Shown here piece by piece: positions 8,967 to 24,385 of a DNA stretch of 24,385 bases; position 1 is the stretch's first letter; every line of letters begins with the position of its first letter. This DNA is from a virus. The notes under the pieces were generated by a model. It was not told the DNA's origin and searched no databases. It saw only the letters and a program-made list of their open reading frames with translations. The stretch lies in IMG/VR virus record IMGVR_UViG_3300028610_000282, positions 1-24,385 of that record. The stretch is one strand, 5' to 3'. Position numbers and translations under genes: made by a program.

Positions 8967-10097
8967 TTAATTCAATTTTCCAGCTTTGTCTAATGCGTCA
9001 TTGAGCACCTTAGTCAGCTCTGTTCTTCTATCGCTCTTTTCTCTCTCGTTGATTAGTGTTTTAGCGTAGGTTTTGGCTGCTTTTCTTGCTTGATTTCTTA
9101 AACAGTCTGGGTCAGTAGTGTCTCTTGAAAAAGATGTACATCCTTTCTCATATAGGGTACACCAATCAGTGTTGACAACTTCTGTGTCGGGGCCTTGTGG
9201 CTCCTGTGCGAATACTCTACGTTTGTAGTTTACACAAATTCCAGTTGTGTCTTTGTACTGTAATTCTGCTTCCTCAGTTTCATCCGAAGGGTCTGTAATT
9301 ACAGAAGTATCGCCCTCTACTTTATTAGAGGTTAGTTTATTAGCTTTCTCTAACAGATCGTAATCTAAGACAATTACCTCTTTAGAGGCCTTCGAACTCT
9401 TCTCAGAAGCTGTCTCAAGTATTATAGATGCTGGGTTTGCAGGATTTTTGACTACACCACATCCTGAGAATACTATACCTCTCAGGACACGCTCTAGTGT
9501 TCCCTCCGCTATTTCTTTTCCCTTCTTGACGACCTTAGCCAGTTTACCAAAGAGTCTGTCATTAAATGCTAATCCCATTACTTCAGCCTCGCGCTGGGTT
9601 AAAACTAGATCACCAATTTTTACATCATAACTTGAGTAATAACACTCCATTGACACGCACCACTTACCGCTAGATACTTCTCTCGCTAAATTGGGAAATC
9701 TGTTTCTATATATCACACCAGCGATTACCACGTGCATATCATTATTCTCACTGTCGAGACTGGCGTCCTCTTTATTAGCTAGTTCCTCCATATTTAGCTT
9801 TTTATTATCATTGTCCATAAATGCCCTGTCGTAAATGTGACCCACAATGTCTTCTTCTTTGTGTTCCACGTCTAGAGCTTTACTAACAATAGTATCCTCT
9901 GCCTTTACAAGCTCAGAAGGTAAGAAATGTGCTCCATTTAGATTTGTGCCGGCGGAAACAAAAACAGCAGAAAAATATTGTAAATCTGGCTGCTTGTCTT
10001 CATTTCTAGGAAGATCTATAACAGCGGCACACGCCTTCTGTAAATCTTCAGTTTCTTCCTCAAGTATAATATCTGCTTTTAAATAAAATTTACCCAT
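8967..10097 (-). CDS. Prohead maturation protease with Cys-rich C-terminal extension (376 aa)
   Basis: The N-terminal half looks like the assemblin-type serine proteases that cut scaffold and capsid during head maturation. A histidine in LDVEHKEEDIVGHIYDRAF (H79) and a serine in WCVSMECYYSSYDV (S149) sit in the order and setting of the family's catalytic His and Ser. GVVKNPANPAS (214-224) matches the conserved strand near the end of the domain. After about residue 230 there is a linker, then a tail (about 280-345) with four cysteines at 288, 313, 320 and 332 that is not part of the usual protease. The gene follows the portal and precedes the scaffold, as expected. The start is supported by AAGGAGACTTTAA before ATG 10097. 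Protease identity is likely; the tail's role is unknown. Confidence 0.75.
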   Translation of the reverse strand: MGKFYLKADIILEEETEDLQKACAAVIDLPRNEDKQPDLQYFSAVFVSAGTNLNGAHFLPSELVKAEDTIVSKALDVEHKEEDIVGHIYDRAFMDNDNKKLNMEELANKEDASLDSENNDMHVVIAGVIYRNRFPNLAREVSSGKWCVSMECYYSSYDVKIGDLVLTQREAEVMGLAFNDRLFGKLAKVVKKGKEIAEGTLERVLRGIVFSGCGVVKNPANPASIILETASEKSSKASKEVIVLDYDLLEKANKLTSNKVEGDTSVITDPSDETEEAELQYKDTTGICVNYKRRVFAQEPQGPDTEVVNTDWCTLYEKGCTSFSRDTTDPDCLRNQARKAAKTYAKTLINEREKSDRRTELTKVLNDALDKAGKLN

Positions 10098-19157: not shown

Positions 19158-19557
19158 TTACAGTGCTCCACTCTATAACCTTCAGTTCATTTGAAATTGT
19201 AGTATGCTCTTCAAGCAATTTATCTCTCTGCTCCATTAAACTAAACACGTCCAATACACCGTTCTCATTTTCTATCAGAGCATTAAGTAGATCTATCTTC
19301 CGTTTCATTGTTTTAGTAATAATAAAGGCATTAGCTAAAACTACCTTCGAACTACCAATAGATACCTCTGTAGTATTATTCATCTTGTTTATTGATATAA
19401 GATGACTTCGGTGTTTGTCAAGTAGATCTAGTAATTTAATAGTAGCTGTGTCAGCCAGGGTAGCATTGTTGTCTGCTAGCCTATGAAGATAATCTTCAAG
19501 TTGGCTAATCCTCTGCTTAAGATTTCGCATCTCTATAAGAACTTCAGCTAATACCAT
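19150..19557 (-). CDS. DIP1984-family-like coiled-coil protein (135 aa)
   Basis: The protein is mostly helical, with an early coiled coil (EMRNLKQRISQLEDYLHRLA) and a central SHLISINKMNNTTEV (about 52-66) followed by a long helix and a final LMEQRDKLLEEHTT helix. This order, helical hairpin with an IN-x-x-N-x-T segment in the loop, resembles the DIP1984 (septicolysin-like) family found in bacteria and phages, whose function is poorly known. GAGGAG lies nine bases before ATG 19557. It sits just after the cold-shock gene. The family call is tentative. Confidence 0.6.
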   Translation of the reverse strand: MVLAEVLIEMRNLKQRISQLEDYLHRLADNNATLADTATIKLLDLLDKHRSHLISINKMNNTTEVSIGSSKVVLANAFIITKTMKRKIDLLNALIENENGVLDVFSLMEQRDKLLEEHTTISNELKVIEWSTVID

Positions 19558-19563
19558 TTATTC

Positions 19564-19785
19564 TTACTCCTCTGGTAGAACTTCATGCGCTTGTATACCA
19601 CGATCAGTGTCTACCAACACAAAAGAAACTTTCTGCCCTGCTCGAATAGTTTTATACCCTTCCATATTTACATAGCTATAATGTACAAAATACTCTTTCT
19701 CGTCAGGATCATCATCAATCAATAAAAATCCATATCCACGTTCGTTGCTGAACCACTTTACGGTTCCACTAATTCGCTCGCTCAT
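19564..19785 (-). CDS. Cold-shock domain protein (73 aa)
   Basis: This is a single OB-fold cold-shock domain that binds single-stranded RNA or DNA. GTVKWFSNERGYGFL (7-21) contains RNP1 with its aromatic surface, and EYFVHYSYV (31-39) is RNP2. The length is usual for bacterial CspA-type proteins; an acidic insert (DDDPDEKE) sits between the two strands. GAGG lies 11 bases before ATG 19785. Phage copies may act as RNA chaperones or antiterminators and help host takeover. No 5' leader of the cspA type is visible, so cold regulation is not suggested. Confidence 0.92.
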   Translation of the reverse strand: MSERISGTVKWFSNERGYGFLLIDDDPDEKEYFVHYSYVNMEGYKTIRAGQKVSFVLVDTDRGIQAHEVLPEE

Positions 19786-19800
19786 TTTAAGTTAAACCTC

Positions 19801-20208
19801 CTAAGTTTTAAGTTCAAAATGCGGTAGATCAAAAAAAGTCTGATCATGTAGTTCGCCATCACTGTCCCAGTCTCCACCCCAACGTAAAGGTATGCCTAAT
19901 GTATCTGCTATAGCCTGTACATATCCAGCGAAATGATAGAACTTCTGGCTATCATTCCAACGGATATTAGGTTTTGTTGAGAACCAAGGTACGACATCAA
20001 CGGCCTGGGATGGTTGTTTATTGTGTTTACCGTTCGGGTAGCGTATCTTGGAACGTCCTTCATGAAAAGCTTTATCTTGGTCTTCTTGGTTTCTGTACCC
20101 ACACAAAACGGTACAATCATAACCCTTTATTACTTCATTAAACAATCGCTGCAAGTCTGGATGTGCGGTTGATAGATTGTTTCTGCTGCGTTTTCCGAAA
20201 CTTGGCAT
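19801..20208 (-). CDS. M15-family cell-wall peptidase, probable endolysin (135 aa)
   Basis: The start is ATG 20208 (MPSFGKRSRN), with GAAGGAG eight bases upstream; a TTG at 20235 would only read through this ribosome site. The fold matches zinc D-Ala-D-Ala carboxypeptidase / L-Ala-D-Glu endopeptidase enzymes (VanY/CwlK type). CGYRNQEDQDKAF (36-48) is the usual early motif, KHNKQPSQAVDVVPW (61-75) holds zinc ligands H62 and D71, RWGGDWD (109-115) follows, and DLPHFEL (127-133) gives H130 as the third ligand. The likely role is cleavage of peptidoglycan peptide bridges at lysis, or in a tail-associated step. There is no signal peptide, so it would need a holin or mechanical delivery. Confidence 0.88.
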   Translation of the reverse strand: MPSFGKRSRNNLSTAHPDLQRLFNEVIKGYDCTVLCGYRNQEDQDKAFHEGRSKIRYPNGKHNKQPSQAVDVVPWFSTKPNIRWNDSQKFYHFAGYVQAIADTLGIPLRWGGDWDSDGELHDQTFFDLPHFELKT

Positions 20209-20244
20209 AAAAATTTCTCCTTCCCTATCTAACAAGAGGTTATA

Positions 20245-20595
20245 TTATTTAAACATCGGTAATGCATTAACTAACTCTAAAGGTGTAACTGCAATACCTA
20301 GATTTTCTAAAGCGAAAGGTTCAATTTTAAGTTCCTTATTCAATACTCTTTTGATAGCAGCATTAAATTTCTTTTCGTGCTCAGGTAGGATTTTAATATT
20401 CTTTTGTTCACCCTCACCCTCCTCTTCTACACCATACTTCTGAAACAGTTCTGTGCGTTTCATTTCAAAATTCTGAATTTCCATCAGTACCTCTCTAACA
20501 AATGTTGCGAATTGGAACGCAGATACTGGGTCCATTTCCACTCCTGCCATTTTTTCCAGTGTCGGCCTTGCGCCGATGGCGTCATTCAATTTCAT
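20245..20595 (-). CDS. Phage protein, DUF1617-like (116 aa)
   Basis: The protein is helical at its start (AFQFATFVREVLMEIQNFEM, 26-45), has KRTELFQKYGVEEE (46-59), an acidic turn, then KILPEHEKKFNAAIKRVLNKEL and an end (GIAVTPLELVNALPMF) that packs like a small domain. The arrangement resembles DUF1617-type phage proteins, which have no firm function. AGGAGG lies nine bases before ATG 20595. It follows the actin-like gene closely, so it might be a small partner of that filament protein, but this is speculation. Confidence 0.6.
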   Translation of the reverse strand: MKLNDAIGARPTLEKMAGVEMDPVSAFQFATFVREVLMEIQNFEMKRTELFQKYGVEEEGEGEQKNIKILPEHEKKFNAAIKRVLNKELKIEPFALENLGIAVTPLELVNALPMFK

Positions 20596-20608
20596 CTAAT
20601 AAATCCTC

Positions 20609-21607
20609 CTATAGTTGGGCGGCCAATAAACAACCGTTTGCAACAGCTGTCATAGGATCGCCCGCTTTTTTAATTTCGCCTATTTTAATAGGTAGTTCTA
20701 TTGTACTTAATACATCACGTACTTTACCACTAAAGCCCTTAGCTAAGGTAAGTCCTCCAGACAATATCATAGATACTTCTTCTCTAAAAATAGGAAGATC
20801 TTTTTTACGTCTGATAAGCTCAAAGGCCACATTCTCTAATGTATATTTTATTACACTACCGTAGTATACAGCTACGGCCTCCATAATTTTAGTCTCGTGG
20901 TTGTTCAGGTCCACCCCTGACTCCTTCTCAAGCTGTACTAAGCTGGGAGAGATATCCAGCGCGTTTCCCGCTGCAATGTCAATAAAATCTCCAGCTCTGG
21001 TCGTACTAAATTCTACAAGTGGATCTCCCTGATGGATGACGGCTGTATTCACCATACCAGCACCAAAGCTGAGACAGATACCAGTCAGTCCCTCATCTAG
21101 AAGTTCACTTAAAGCAATGGCGAATGCCTCGTTAACTGGTTGGGCCCTATACCCCATCTGTCCTAAATATCCGCCCATCATTTCAGTATGATATACAATA
21201 TCAAATATACCATCTATGGGTTTGGCAGGAACGGAATAAACTAAATTGGTGTCTCCGTTTCCCTTACCAAGAAGATTCTCAATCAAGAGTTTTAACATTG
21301 GTAAAGAATCTTTTTCTTTGGGTGAAATGACACCCCTCCTTAACGGCCTCTTAGCGACGTCGTTTCTTTCAATAGCTGTCTCAAGGGCTTCCTCTCCAAC
21401 AACAACAAAAGAACCATCACTATCCTCAATAAAGTTGAATGCTCTCTTGGTGAGAGCTTTCTTGATGCTATTACGATTGACTTCGCTCTTAGGTACAATT
21501 CTGTAGAAAGCATCTCGCTGCATCTTAAATACAGGTTTTCCTTCCTCCCCAATAGTAGCAGCTACTAACATGTTAGTACCAATGTCTAGTCCTACACCTT
21601 TGCTCAT
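20609..21607 (-). CDS. Actin/MreB-like ATPase (332 aa)
   Basis: The actin fold's nucleotide-binding motifs appear in order. Phosphate-1 is GLDIGTNMLVAA (6-17, Asp8). Connect-1 is PVNEAFAIALSELL (157-170, Glu160). Phosphate-2 is LSFGAGMVNTAV (179-190), and the adenosine motif is MILSGGLTLAKGF (280-292), followed by connect-2 (AVANGCLLA). The usual Asp of phosphate-2 is Ser180 here, which may alter metal binding or slow hydrolysis, or mark a distinct subfamily. Length and motifs fit MreB and plasmid actin-like proteins more than Hsp70, which has a C-terminal domain. It lies just after a coiled-coil gene, so a filament plus adaptor pair for DNA or particle positioning is a reasonable inference. 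Confidence 0.85.
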   Translation of the reverse strand: MSKGVGLDIGTNMLVAATIGEEGKPVFKMQRDAFYRIVPKSEVNRNSIKKALTKRAFNFIEDSDGSFVVVGEEALETAIERNDVAKRPLRRGVISPKEKDSLPMLKLLIENLLGKGNGDTNLVYSVPAKPIDGIFDIVYHTEMMGGYLGQMGYRAQPVNEAFAIALSELLDEGLTGICLSFGAGMVNTAVIHQGDPLVEFSTTRAGDFIDIAAGNALDISPSLVQLEKESGVDLNNHETKIMEAVAVYYGSVIKYTLENVAFELIRRKKDLPIFREEVSMILSGGLTLAKGFSGKVRDVLSTIELPIKIGEIKKAGDPMTAVANGCLLAAQL

Positions 21608-21618
21608 TTTAATTCCTC

Positions 21619-22353
21619 CTATTTATTGGGTAATTTACCTAACAAGTCTTTAAGTTTATTGACCTTATCACCCACTTCCTCGTCCTTAACAACTGTTTCT
21701 ATATTAATCGTTGCCTTCATCCCCTTACCGGCGTCTTCCTCCAGAGGGTCAACAAAAACTTGTTCCATCTGAGGTCTGTCAGGGTCTGTAAAAATCTCGC
21801 CTTCAAGTATTGCCGGCCTAGTCTTAAGCATCTCTACCATCTCTCCTTTACCAACCAGTTCTTGTTCCAGAACTGCTATTTGTTTCTTAAGTTCAACAAC
21901 ATCTACCATCTCAGCTTCAAGTTTAGCTATCTTTTCTTTCAAGTTTCCGCTTTCTTTGGTAATAGAAGCGTGTAGTTTAGTGAGATTATCATTACCTCTT
22001 TGTAATTCTACTATTTGTTTCTTATACTCATGTACCAACGGCGCCATGTCTGCATTCTTAGTGTCACCCTTAAATGAGATTGCTGACTCAGCTACCGCGG
22101 CTTCTACAGCCTTTCTAATCTCCTCATCTACCTGTTCTGGTGAGAAAAATCCTGCTGGAGCTGCATCGCCACTCCTACTTTTCATCGCCAAAATCTCAGC
22201 CCTAAGCTCTGTTAGTTGGTTGGTGAGAAGTTCAACCATACTAGTGTCTGGTGTGTAGCTACCAACAGTACGTGCCTGCATATCACGAGGACCACTCCTG
22301 TTCAACTTGCGGCCATCAGATTTTACATACTGTTTCTTATACGGAATTGCCAT
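21619..22353 (-). CDS. Coiled-coil protein next to the actin-like ATPase (244 aa)
   Basis: The basic N-terminus (MAIPYKKQYVKSDGRKLNRS) leads to a helical stretch (40-60) and a long coiled coil from about 105 to 185 with regular Leu/Ile/Val spacing. An acidic segment (about 195-210) and a separate C-terminal block (MKATINIETVVKDEEVGDKV, 213-232) follow, which may be a binding tip. It is 12 bases upstream of the actin-like gene and seven bases after ClpP. Coiled-coil proteins beside actin-like genes often link filaments to cargo. The first five residues and 17 bases at its start are identical to those of clpP. Function is inferred from neighbours only. Confidence 0.7.
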   Translation of the reverse strand: MAIPYKKQYVKSDGRKLNRSGPRDMQARTVGSYTPDTSMVELLTNQLTELRAEILAMKSRSGDAAPAGFFSPEQVDEEIRKAVEAAVAESAISFKGDTKNADMAPLVHEYKKQIVELQRGNDNLTKLHASITKESGNLKEKIAKLEAEMVDVVELKKQIAVLEQELVGKGEMVEMLKTRPAILEGEIFTDPDRPQMEQVFVDPLEEDAGKGMKATINIETVVKDEEVGDKVNKLKDLLGKLPNK

Positions 22354-22945
22354 TGTCCTTTACTCCCTATTGTATTGAATTTCATCAATAAGACCATAGT
22401 CCTTGGCCTCTTGCGCAGTCATGAAATTATCCCGCTCCATATCCTTCTTGACCTTCTTGAGTGTTTGGCCAGTAAAATCAACATAATGTTCGGCCATTTT
22501 TTCGTAGAGTACTTCCATATGTTTAACTGAATTTCTGACCTCATGATATTTGCCTTCGGCCCCACCTGCCAGTTCATGAATCATAATATCAGCATTAGGA
22601 AGTGCAAATCTTTTACCCTTAGTACCTGCTGCTAATAAAAAAGAACCAGCACTCATACACTGCCCATAACCCATTGTGTTAATATCAGGTTTTACATATT
22701 GCATAGCATCATAGATACCATACATCTCAGAAATCAAACCGCCCGGACTATTTATGTACATATAAATATCTTTACTGGGTGAATCTGATTCAAGGAATAG
22801 TAACTGAGCTACCACAACATCAGCGAAACCGTCGCCGATGGGCCCCCTGATAAAAACAATCCTGTCCTTCAAAAGCCTTGAAAATAAATCGTACGATCTC
22901 TCCTGGTTGTTTGGACCCTTCTCAATAATATACGGAATTGCCATT
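22338..22945. repeat. 17-bp direct repeat over the starts of two adjacent genes
   Basis: The same 17 bases, TATACGGAATTGCCATT on the plus strand, occur at 22338-22354 and 22929-22945. Each copy covers the ATG and codons for MAIPY of the coiled-coil and ClpP genes. The repeat could reflect copying of a start region or a shared translational control element. Confidence 0.85.
22360..22944 (-). CDS. clpP: ClpP-family serine protease (194 aa)
   Basis: This is a full-length ClpP, the barrel peptidase that degrades proteins fed by Clp ATPases. The catalytic triad is intact: Ser98 in GYGQCMSAGSFLLAAG, His123 in IMIHELAGGAEG, and Asp172 in MERDNFMTAQEAKDYGLID. The oxyanion region INSPGG (64-69) is also present. 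The usual Ala-Ala before the catalytic Ser is Cys-Met here. The length and residue numbers match bacterial ClpP closely. No ClpX or ClpA gene is in the window, so it may use host unfoldases, mix with host ClpP, or work alone on small substrates. A separate prohead protease lies in the head cluster, so it need not be the capsid-maturing enzyme. It is third-gene-distance from a strong promoter. Confidence 0.95.
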   Translation of the reverse strand: MAIPYIIEKGPNNQERSYDLFSRLLKDRIVFIRGPIGDGFADVVVAQLLFLESDSPSKDIYMYINSPGGLISEMYGIYDAMQYVKPDINTMGYGQCMSAGSFLLAAGTKGKRFALPNADIMIHELAGGAEGKYHEVRNSVKHMEVLYEKMAEHYVDFTGQTLKKVKKDMERDNFMTAQEAKDYGLIDEIQYNRE

Positions 22946-23176
22946 TTAATCTTCCTTTCCTTTAAGTTGTATTAATTGTTTTGCAAGCTCCTTAGCCGCT
23001 TCTATTTGTTTATTATTTTTTTTGTTTGCTACGATTCCCTTAATCATGTAACCCAAATCTATTATGTCATCCCTGTCTTTCTTGAGGATTATGCCAGCGT
23101 TTGATAATGTGTTTAATAGACATAGCATCATATAAGAGTTTGGATCATCCCCATCAAACAAATCTTTTGATTCCAT
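22946..23176 (-). CDS. Small acidic-start protein, unknown (76 aa)
   Basis: ATG 23176 is the likely start: AAGGAGG is eight bases upstream, and the promoter's expected transcript start falls near 23189, which excludes the in-frame GTG at 23206. The protein (MESKDLFDGDDPNSYMMLCL) is helical, with an acidic start, a mid-section (NTLSNAGIILKKDRDDIIDL) and a Lys/Gln-rich end. It has no known motif. It is the first gene of the ClpP and actin-like operon and ends one base before clpP begins, so it could be a ClpP adaptor or an unrelated early protein. Nothing in the sequence decides. Confidence 0.65.
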   Translation of the reverse strand: MESKDLFDGDDPNSYMMLCLLNTLSNAGIILKKDRDDIIDLGYMIKGIVANKKNNKQIEAAKELAKQLIQLKGKED

Positions 23177-23193
23177 TATTCTGTCCTCCTTAC

Positions 23194-23223
23194 ATAATAT
23201 AATCACTATTTGTTATTTGTCAA
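23194..23223 (-). promoter_or_regulatory. Sigma70-type promoter for the ClpP/actin-like operon
   Basis: On the minus strand a perfect -35 TTGACA (23218-23223) is followed after 16 bases by TATATT (23196-23201). An alternative -10 TATTAT (23194-23199) has 18-base spacing. It lies in the only gap between the Asn-synthetase-like gene and the 76-aa gene, with a strong ribosome site just downstream. It should be read by unmodified host RNA polymerase, which suggests early or middle expression of the operon. Confidence 0.6.
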
Positions 23224-23226
23224 GTT

Positions 23227-23940
23227 TTATTTGTTATTTTCTATAAAAGCATCACAAAATCCATATTTATTTCGTGTTATTATTTTTTCAGGTATTTCAA
23301 GATACCTTGCCATACTACAAACTATTTTTTTTCGTATAGTTGGATTTACTTTCTCTGATAAAGAAATATGCTTAAAAATATTTACAAGATCATTATCTAA
23401 ATAAGGAATAAATACTTTAGTATCCTTTGAATTATTATCTAATGGTATGAGGTGACCTGATAATAATCTACTTAAAAAATATCTATAAGTTTCATGTTTC
23501 AAATCCTGATGTGCATAATAACCACACATAAATTCATCTATACCATCACAACAAATTATTTCATTTGTTTCTATCAATTCAAACAACTGTCTTATAGCAT
23601 TATCTCCTGTAAATTTATCAGTTTCTTCATGTGTTGGATCAACAATAAACTCCTGATGTGTACTATTATATATTGTACTACCATATTTAGCAAACTGCAT
23701 ATCAGGATGATCTTCCCTCGAAGATATTGTATAAGTAAATACATTGTCAAAGATCCTGGTTAATAAACACAATACAATAGTGGAATCTACCCCACCACTA
23801 TACGCCAAACAATTCACATTTATTTTTTTAAGCACACCATACAAAATATCTATTATATTCGGTATATCAACGTCAACATGTCCTTCGGATAAAGCAAATT
23901 TTTCATAGTCTATGTGCCAATTTTTAGGGTAAACAATCAT
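23227..23940 (-). CDS. Asparagine-synthetase-type ATP pyrophosphatase, no glutaminase domain (237 aa)
   Basis: The protein carries only the synthetase half of AsnB. The PP-loop is YSGGVDST (47-54); CDGIDEFMCGYY (131-142) matches the AsnB DGxDExxxGY motif; VFIPYLDNDLV (176-186) and RNKYGFCDAF (223-232) match later active-site strands. These enzymes adenylate a carboxylate and then join an amine, as in asparagine synthesis, cyclisation of peptides or modification reactions. The glutaminase domain with its N-terminal Cys is absent, so the amine would come from ammonia or a partner. The coding sequence is AT-richer than the structural genes. The start at 23940 has only a weak AGGA and is two bases after the previous stop. 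The substrate is unknown. Confidence 0.8.
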   Translation of the reverse strand: MIVYPKNWHIDYEKFALSEGHVDVDIPNIIDILYGVLKKINVNCLAYSGGVDSTIVLCLLTRIFDNVFTYTISSREDHPDMQFAKYGSTIYNSTHQEFIVDPTHEETDKFTGDNAIRQLFELIETNEIICCDGIDEFMCGYYAHQDLKHETYRYFLSRLLSGHLIPLDNNSKDTKVFIPYLDNDLVNIFKHISLSEKVNPTIRKKIVCSMARYLEIPEKIITRNKYGFCDAFIENNK

Positions 23941-23941
23941 T

Positions 23942-24364
23942 TTATCTATCCTGCTCAGACCATTTGGTCTTTTTTAAACTGACCACACCCGTAAGCACAG
24001 CCCATTTTCTTTTGTTGATTTCCTTTATCTTAACTTTATAGGAATTATTTAAATGACAATAAACTATCTCTGGCGCTTTATCCATTTCTTTTTCTTTAAG
24101 ATCTAAAACATGTTGAAAAACCTTACCATCTTTAACATGACGTTGTGTATATTTTTTACCCTTTTGTCCTTTTTTCTCATGTAAGAAACAATGATGTAGA
24201 GTTTCCATATCTTCTTCCTTCTTAGGTGGATGCATATGATGTATCAAATATATCCAATCTTGTTCTGCAACAGGTGTCTTATGTTTCTTAGCGTTTATTA
24301 CATCCTCCAGTGTGAAACCATACTGCGCTAATACTCCATCAACTATTTTTCTATCTATTTCCAT
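23942..24364 (-). CDS. Unknown protein (140 aa)
   Basis: AAGGAGG lies eight bases before ATG 24364. The N-terminal 25 residues look like a small helical domain (MEIDRKIVDGVLAQYGFTLE). A His/Met/Pro-rich centre (IHHMHPPKKEEDMETLHHCF) and a Lys-rich stretch follow, with a C-terminal beta-like end (YKVKIKEINKRKWAVLTGVV). The His cluster could bind metal, but the spacing fits no family I know. It is directly upstream of the Asn-synthetase-like gene and separated from it by one base, so the two are probably co-translated. No function is assigned. Confidence 0.65.
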   Translation of the reverse strand: MEIDRKIVDGVLAQYGFTLEDVINAKKHKTPVAEQDWIYLIHHMHPPKKEEDMETLHHCFLHEKKGQKGKKYTQRHVKDGKVFQHVLDLKEKEMDKAPEIVYCHLNNSYKVKIKEINKRKWAVLTGVVSLKKTKWSEQDR

Positions 24365-24385
24365 AGTAACTTCCTCCTTATTATT

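Follow-up and report, generated by a model that had tools for sequence, protein, structure and literature searches.

A predicted filament module in a phage operon

We analysed a 24,385-base virus record, IMGVR_UViG_3300028610_000282 of IMG/VR (this whole stretch is called the window below; nearly all of its likely genes are on the minus strand), and propose that an actin-like ATPase of the volactin family and the coiled-coil protein (cc) encoded just upstream of it form a two-gene filament module, an actin with its cognate tether, which would be co-transcribed with the peptidase component of a phage Clp protease; we give this reading a probability of roughly 0.6. The evidence that carries it is the family and predicted fold of the actin, the conservation of the gene order, and a short C-terminal motif common to actin partners in phages and archaea. 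The initial annotation had described a host-type promoter followed, almost without gaps, by a 76-amino-acid (aa) protein, an intact ClpP, a coiled-coil protein and an actin-like ATPase, and all of these elements are indeed present on the minus strand:

23196..23223, minus strand: sigma70-type promoter, TTGACA-16-TATATT, agreeing with the consensus at 11/12 positions
22946..23176, minus strand: 76-aa open reading frame (ORF) with an ATG start, specific to this genome, without a Pfam match
22360..22944, minus strand: ClpP, 194 aa, complete (PF00574, 3.1e-68; triad Ser98/His123/Asp172)
21619..22353, minus strand: cc, coiled-coil protein, 244 aa, proposed actin tether; homologues lie directly upstream of actin in the clade that has the ClpP-cc-actin triplet
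22264..22353, minus strand: cc head, residues 1-30, motif Y-x-K ... G-R-x-L-x-x-x-G-P-R-D-x-Q-x-[RK]
21622..21798, minus strand: cc tail, residues 186-244, box R-P-x-x-E-x-x-[FV]-[IV]-D-P, spacer, C-terminal helix V-G-D-K-V-N-K-L-K-D-L-L-G-K-L
20609..21607, minus strand: volactin-family actin-like ATPase, 332 aa (PF25216, 5.6e-54)

The 76-aa ORF, ClpP, cc and actin genes are spaced by 1 to 11 bases, with no minus-strand terminator-like site between them; since same-strand genes run on past 20609, the operon is not required to end there. The pattern TTGACA-N15..17-TATAWT occurs a single time in the window (0.07 expected), and in 13/16 loci clpP is preceded by a TTGACA box and a -10 element, mostly 77-141 bases before its start. 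In relatives with this promoter clpP comes first or close to first in the gene series; the present genome has the 76-aa ORF in addition. That ORF had been put forward as a possible ClpP adaptor, a suggestion that found no backing: none of 2.9 million viral contigs holds a relative of it, and in related phages its place is held by other small, unrelated genes or by no gene. Two copies of AAATAACAAATA (12 nt each, 21 bases apart; window 23207-23239, minus strand) lie around the -35 box and are possibly an operator; the pair is not kept in relatives.

The actin belongs to the volactin family

Against the Volactin model PF25216 the window actin scores 184.2 bits (cut-off 35) over residues 5-330. 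A relative with 65% identity was modelled with an actin fold (pLDDT >90), and the solved folds closest to this model are the MamK filament 5ljv (best, TM 0.71, to target), BeeR 8r2n (0.67) and MreB 1jcf (0.65), which share 16-19% identity and have different partners; a structure search of a viral structure library returned Hsp70-like matches only. The phosphate motifs D8-x-G-T and S180-[FY]-G-[AS]-G-M are kept and are common to the archaeal members, and because archaeal volactins also carry Ser for the usual Asp in the phosphate-2 motif, we regard this residue as a family trait rather than a sign of decay.

Volactin (VolA, HVO_2015) of Haloferax volcanii is a chromosomal archaeal actin with dynamic filaments and a role in cell shape; its filaments bind membrane by their tips, and the volactin-binding factors are called as yet unknown in that study (PMC10869688). 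The window actin resembles volactin in belonging to the same Pfam family over its whole length, in its phosphate motifs (including SFGAGM), and in having upstream a partner gene whose product carries the same tail motif. It differs in occurring in phages of bacteria, as judged from promoter type and endolysin, in having only 32-36% identity, with filament formation here predicted from the family, and in its partner, which in the window lineage is not a membrane protein: cc is not DUF7139, and only the tail motif is common to the two. In a midpoint-rooted tree the archaeal volactins are one branch among the phage members. In the cultured-phage collection volactin-family actins are absent save for two unannotated huge-phage records. 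One phage member (L212:5176-7266, plus strand) carries an intein with LAGLIDADG after residue 176, beside the phosphate-2 motif.

The coiled-coil gene, rather than ClpP, stays with the actin

For the actin, scanning the 2.9 million viral contigs turned up 21 close loci and 80 wider ones; for ClpP it turned up 80. The clade of the window holds 40 distinct actins, two of them on contigs that end too early, leaving 38 assessable; in 37/38 the order ClpP-cc-actin is found on one strand, across a cc divergence of 24-77%, and the clade is one branch with 99% support. The initial annotation would have been given up had its gene order not extended beyond this genome, and the recurrence of the order in these related phages removes that objection. 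The sole exception (L065) has a head-bearing cc and an actin, with no ClpP in its 20-kb record. The order survives insertions between ClpP and cc, namely HNH genes (L008, L020) and a 448-aa gene (L011).

Outside the clade the three genes come apart. Sister phages (L207, L214-L219) have ClpP in the same place, followed by a 77-122-aa protein with the cc head and a short coil; a Volactin match is absent from the two sister-phage records that were searched, one of them 228 kb long (the record of L214, which has ClpP and a Clp ATPase without actin). At L260 ClpP occurs without cc, and in 34/35 distinct far phage loci the actin occurs without ClpP nearby. Taken together, the sister phages (head without tail or actin) and the far phages (actin without ClpP) imply that the tail accompanies the actin and that the head follows this phage lineage. 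It is the directly upstream gene, cc in the window lineage, and not ClpP, that constantly accompanies the actin. The coiled-coil gene had been named in the initial annotation with no role attached to it.

In searches of Pfam, PHROG and NCBI models and of the cultured-phage collection, cc matched no named family, and no DNA-binding domain was recognised in it by profile searches. Its ends are better conserved than its middle (mean pairwise identity 42% in the head, 38% in the tail, 24% in the middle), with Y5, K7, P22 and R23 invariant in the head and P194, D202, P203 and L234 in the tail. The actin-less sister phages keep the head as SP[RH][DE]xQ, without the FIDP box and the C-terminal KLKxL helix. 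We also modelled the 65%-identical actin relative and its adjacent cc as one chain, reading one stop codon as Gln solely for joining. Joined in this way, residues 171-190 of cc have a pLDDT of 79-83 and form two strands, with linkers near 40 on either side; modelled alone, with a deeper alignment, cc has pLDDT 60-75 and no strands in these residues. The higher order of the tail region in the joint model agrees with a predicted docking onto actin, and is not proof of it. The actins of L010, L013 and L017 have long N-terminal extensions with NKT[KS]GPQ[DE][RK][VI]PK, reminiscent of the cc head motif. In the window, the first 16 bases are identical in the ClpP and cc genes (ATGGCAATTCCGTATA, MAIPY; 22336-22353 and 22927-22944); L003 is similar and most relatives are not.

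A tail motif common to phage and archaeal actin partners

The C-terminal motif V-D-x-x-x-x-K-L-K-x-L is found in many actin partners of phages, haloarchaea and Archaeoglobaceae, in excess of composition and neighbour-gene controls. Phages outside the clade mostly encode, immediately upstream of actin, a protein whose main body is unrelated: a transmembrane stub (L069-L082) or another domain (L084-L086, L090-L108, L023). Most of these proteins end with an acidic-hydrophobic stretch that is followed, after a spacer, by a basic helix of the SxxxLAxLKxxK type. In haloarchaea and Archaeoglobaceae a membrane protein gene lies upstream of volactin, with DUF7139 in the three tested, and its tail often has VDDQxxxLKELR, sometimes or often in two copies. 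Of the haloarchaeal and Archaeoglobaceae chromosomes examined (L117-L188), most have the DUF7139 membrane protein beside volactin; our literature search on DUF7139 found no paper.

A profile of archaeal DUF7139 tails ranked the phage upstream genes above others of the same loci in two comparisons (area under the curve [AUC] 0.83, n 33 vs 337; and AUC 0.89, n 32 vs 486), the archaeal training windows having been picked with the pattern in mind, since the likeness was first noticed by eye in phages. The reciprocal test, in which a profile of phage cc tails was run on archaeal DUF7139 and which is free of this selection weakness, gave an AUC of 0.965. When tails were compared with shuffles of the same residues, 37/57, 10/33 and 8/32 passed p<0.01, as against 0/52 genes downstream of actin and 0/30 ClpPs, these p-values being inexact because the tail sequences are related. 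Tail matches in far phages fall on about seven separate branches of the tree.

ClpP and a phage-encoded Clp ATPase

The window ClpP matches solved ClpPs in the PDB at ~1e-62, with Ser98, His123 and Asp172 aligned to the triad, which is invariant in 16 relatives. It has the fold family (S14, PF00574), the length and the catalytic triad of a full ClpP, and exceeds the subfamily cut-off of NF001368 (253.5 bits vs 249); at 234.6 bits vs 308.6 for the NCBI equivalog TIGR00493 it is near, but outside, the narrow ClpP model. One locus (L015:1576-2157) has in the same slot a ClpP of 47% identity with a more canonical active-site region (SMGA, HQPLGG), as if replaced.

This ClpP had been thought to lack an unfoldase of its own, which proved wrong for the lineage: a ClpA/C-type AAA+ ATPase with an invariant IGF loop is encoded in 3/3 ClpP-bearing records >220 kb (G020, G021, G022). 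The three ATPases have AAA_2, as in ClpA and ClpC, a phage-specific N-part and the loop KTIGFG where ClpA has IGL; that of G020 also has D2-small. Each is a single AAA module whose gene lies far from clpP. We take the IGF loop to be the ClpP-docking loop, by analogy with ClpA and ClpX. A ClpP-bearing 189-kb record (G009) gave no strong Clp ATPase match, so the ATPase may not be present in all relatives; the window itself is a short, 24-kb fragment. The G020 ATPase gene (L028:7340-10492, minus strand) is split by an intein with Hint and LAGLIDADG matches, and ~1.5 kb from it lies a phage DnaK (HSP70, 3.9e-261; L028:3912-5804, minus strand), suggesting a phage proteostasis cluster.

Interpretation and alternatives

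We reason that the volactin-family actin (20609-21607) would form ATP-driven filaments and that the cc tail, with its FIDP box and C-terminal amphipathic helix, would bind the actin, probably at the filament end. The coiled coil would make cc a di- or multimer and so provide valency, and the conserved head (GPRDxQ) would hold a phage-specific cargo or site. By analogy with AlpAC (PMC4446434) and PhuZ (PMC4244570), filament and tether may position phage genomes, procapsids or the replication site in infected bacteria. ClpP, expressed from the same sigma70-type promoter and with the same timing, would supply the peptidase of a Clp protease owned by the phage, with the ATPase presumably encoded elsewhere in the genome. 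The inteins in one actin and one Clp ATPase, given their habit of inserting at conserved, needed sites, may be counted in favour of this reading.

Several points weigh against it. The tail-actin binding and the contacts are predictions, and the cc head has no known fold, so that its cargo is a guess. ClpP almost always precedes the pair, which a pure two-gene view leaves unexplained. The motif of the tail is short and fails to score in about half of the far phages, and the sequences are not independent; moreover, the coil of the actin-less L214 protein contains a weak match to the helix motif that is due to chance.

An alternative is a three-part machine in which cc links the filament to ClpP, or to the phage ClpP-ATPase, and proteolysis would thereby be brought to the filament or turn it over. 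Adjacency of ClpP in nearly all assessable loci and the one promoter speak for such a machine, as do the diverged ClpP of L015, whose position implies that the slot is kept, and the cc head, which occurs in the lineage with this ClpP and was not detected in far phages without ClpP beside actin (1/33 over the 99th percentile). Yet head and ClpP belong to one phage lineage and their correlation is thus confounded by descent, and the parts are found separated, as ClpP and ATPase without actin (L214), head-bearing cc and actin without ClpP (L065), and ClpP without cc (L260); we consider this alternative unlikely. Equally doubtful in our view is that the three genes are mere neighbours in a late operon beside lysis and packaging genes, their order kept through shared timing. 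The flanking run (endolysin, cold-shock protein [CSD], dNMP kinase, TerS-like gene, TerL) is as conserved as the triplet, and the insertions between ClpP and cc are tolerated; however, this account leaves unexplained the same tail motif upstream of actin in unrelated phages and archaea.

It is highly improbable that the genes form a ParM-like segregation cassette of a phage-plasmid, with cc as a ParR-like DNA-binding adaptor and a centromere nearby. The adaptor-actin gene pair and the two AAATAACAAATA copies would suit such a cassette, and so would the C-terminal helix of cc, as in ParR-ParM. Against this, the DNA-binding domain expected of a ParR-like protein is not recognised in cc, integrase, partition and lysogeny genes were not recognised among the window genes searched, and no iteron or centromere-like array was found in 19500-24385; a partition cassette with iterons was rejected on this absence and on the lack of conservation of the paired 12-nt repeat. 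Scarcely credible, finally, is a structural operon with ClpP as the head maturation protease. The best PHROG of ClpP is indeed that family (phrog_94, 2e-42), but a separate 376-aa gene (8967-10097) occupies the usual protease slot between portal and scaffold, in a layout that is itself inferred. Since ClpP exceeds the NF001368 cut-off and stays below that of the head-maturation model NF045542 (83.2 bits vs 120), the PHROG match reflects the shared S14 fold only, and the assignment was rejected on these curated cut-offs.

The reading of a filament with its tether may extend further. We tentatively suggest, at somewhat less than even odds, that a single tethering principle serves the volactin-family actins of both archaea and large bacterial phages: the anchor encoded upstream would be interchangeable (the membrane protein DUF7139, a coiled coil, a transmembrane stub or some other domain) and would carry at its end one and the same actin-binding tail. 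On this view phages would use a tether that bears cargo, DUF7139 would be the membrane anchor that volactin filament tips have so far lacked, and the tether of the window lineage may also hold the phage Clp protease. The initial annotation had supposed that the gene set may remodel the host cell by targeted proteolysis, or clear or regulate the filament; its interpretation is partly supported, namely for the single promoter, the closely spaced genes and the gene order. A part of ClpP in clearing or regulating the filament is not supported and is not required, ClpP with its ATPase being found without the actin and relatives of the actin without ClpP nearby.

Relation to known systems

Phage actins with adaptors and phage ClpPs are each known separately. 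In prophage CGP3 of Corynebacterium glutamicum, AlpA and AlpC are a phage adaptor and an actin in one operon, giving a filament with adaptor-bound cargo (PMC4446434); AlpA binds DNA, unlike cc as far as its domains are recognised, AlpC is of another actin family, and no ClpP is present there. The PhuZ spindle of nucleus-forming jumbo phages is a phage-encoded filament that positions phage DNA (PMC4244570, PMC7950403), built of a tubulin where the window encodes an actin. The literature and collections that we searched held no phage volactin-family actin, no conserved partner of one, no tail shared with DUF7139 and no ClpP-tether-actin operon, and our literature search returned no paper linking phage ClpP with actin. 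The present comparison thus adds an actin family in uncultured large phages, with a partner that has no match in the cultured-phage collection, and brings to light phages in which ClpP is paired with an IGF-loop Clp ATPase. By setting phages beside archaea it also names DUF7139, with a short motif, as a candidate volactin-binding factor, and the likeness of the tails points to a shared, putative way of anchoring volactin-family filaments in both.

Neighbouring genes and host

The gene series of the minus strand begins with h140, an asparagine-synthase-like gene, the 76-aa ORF, ClpP, cc, actin and a 116-aa gene, and continues with an M15-type endolysin, a cold-shock protein, several small genes, the dNMP kinase, the TerS-like gene and TerL. 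There follow a portal-like gene, the 376-aa gene, a scaffold-like gene, the capsid protein and tail genes, the portal, scaffold and protease roles being assigned partly by position. A tRNA search of the 24,385 bases found none. Endolysin and sigma70-type promoter suggest a bacterial host for the window phage. A Fermentibacteria contig (L109) was considered as a host clue and set aside, as it is apparently a phage contig within a bin, shares its length of 32,411 bases and its hit with phage record L007, and gives little host information. The asparagine-synthase-like gene (237 aa, window 23227-23940) lies upstream of the operon on the same strand.

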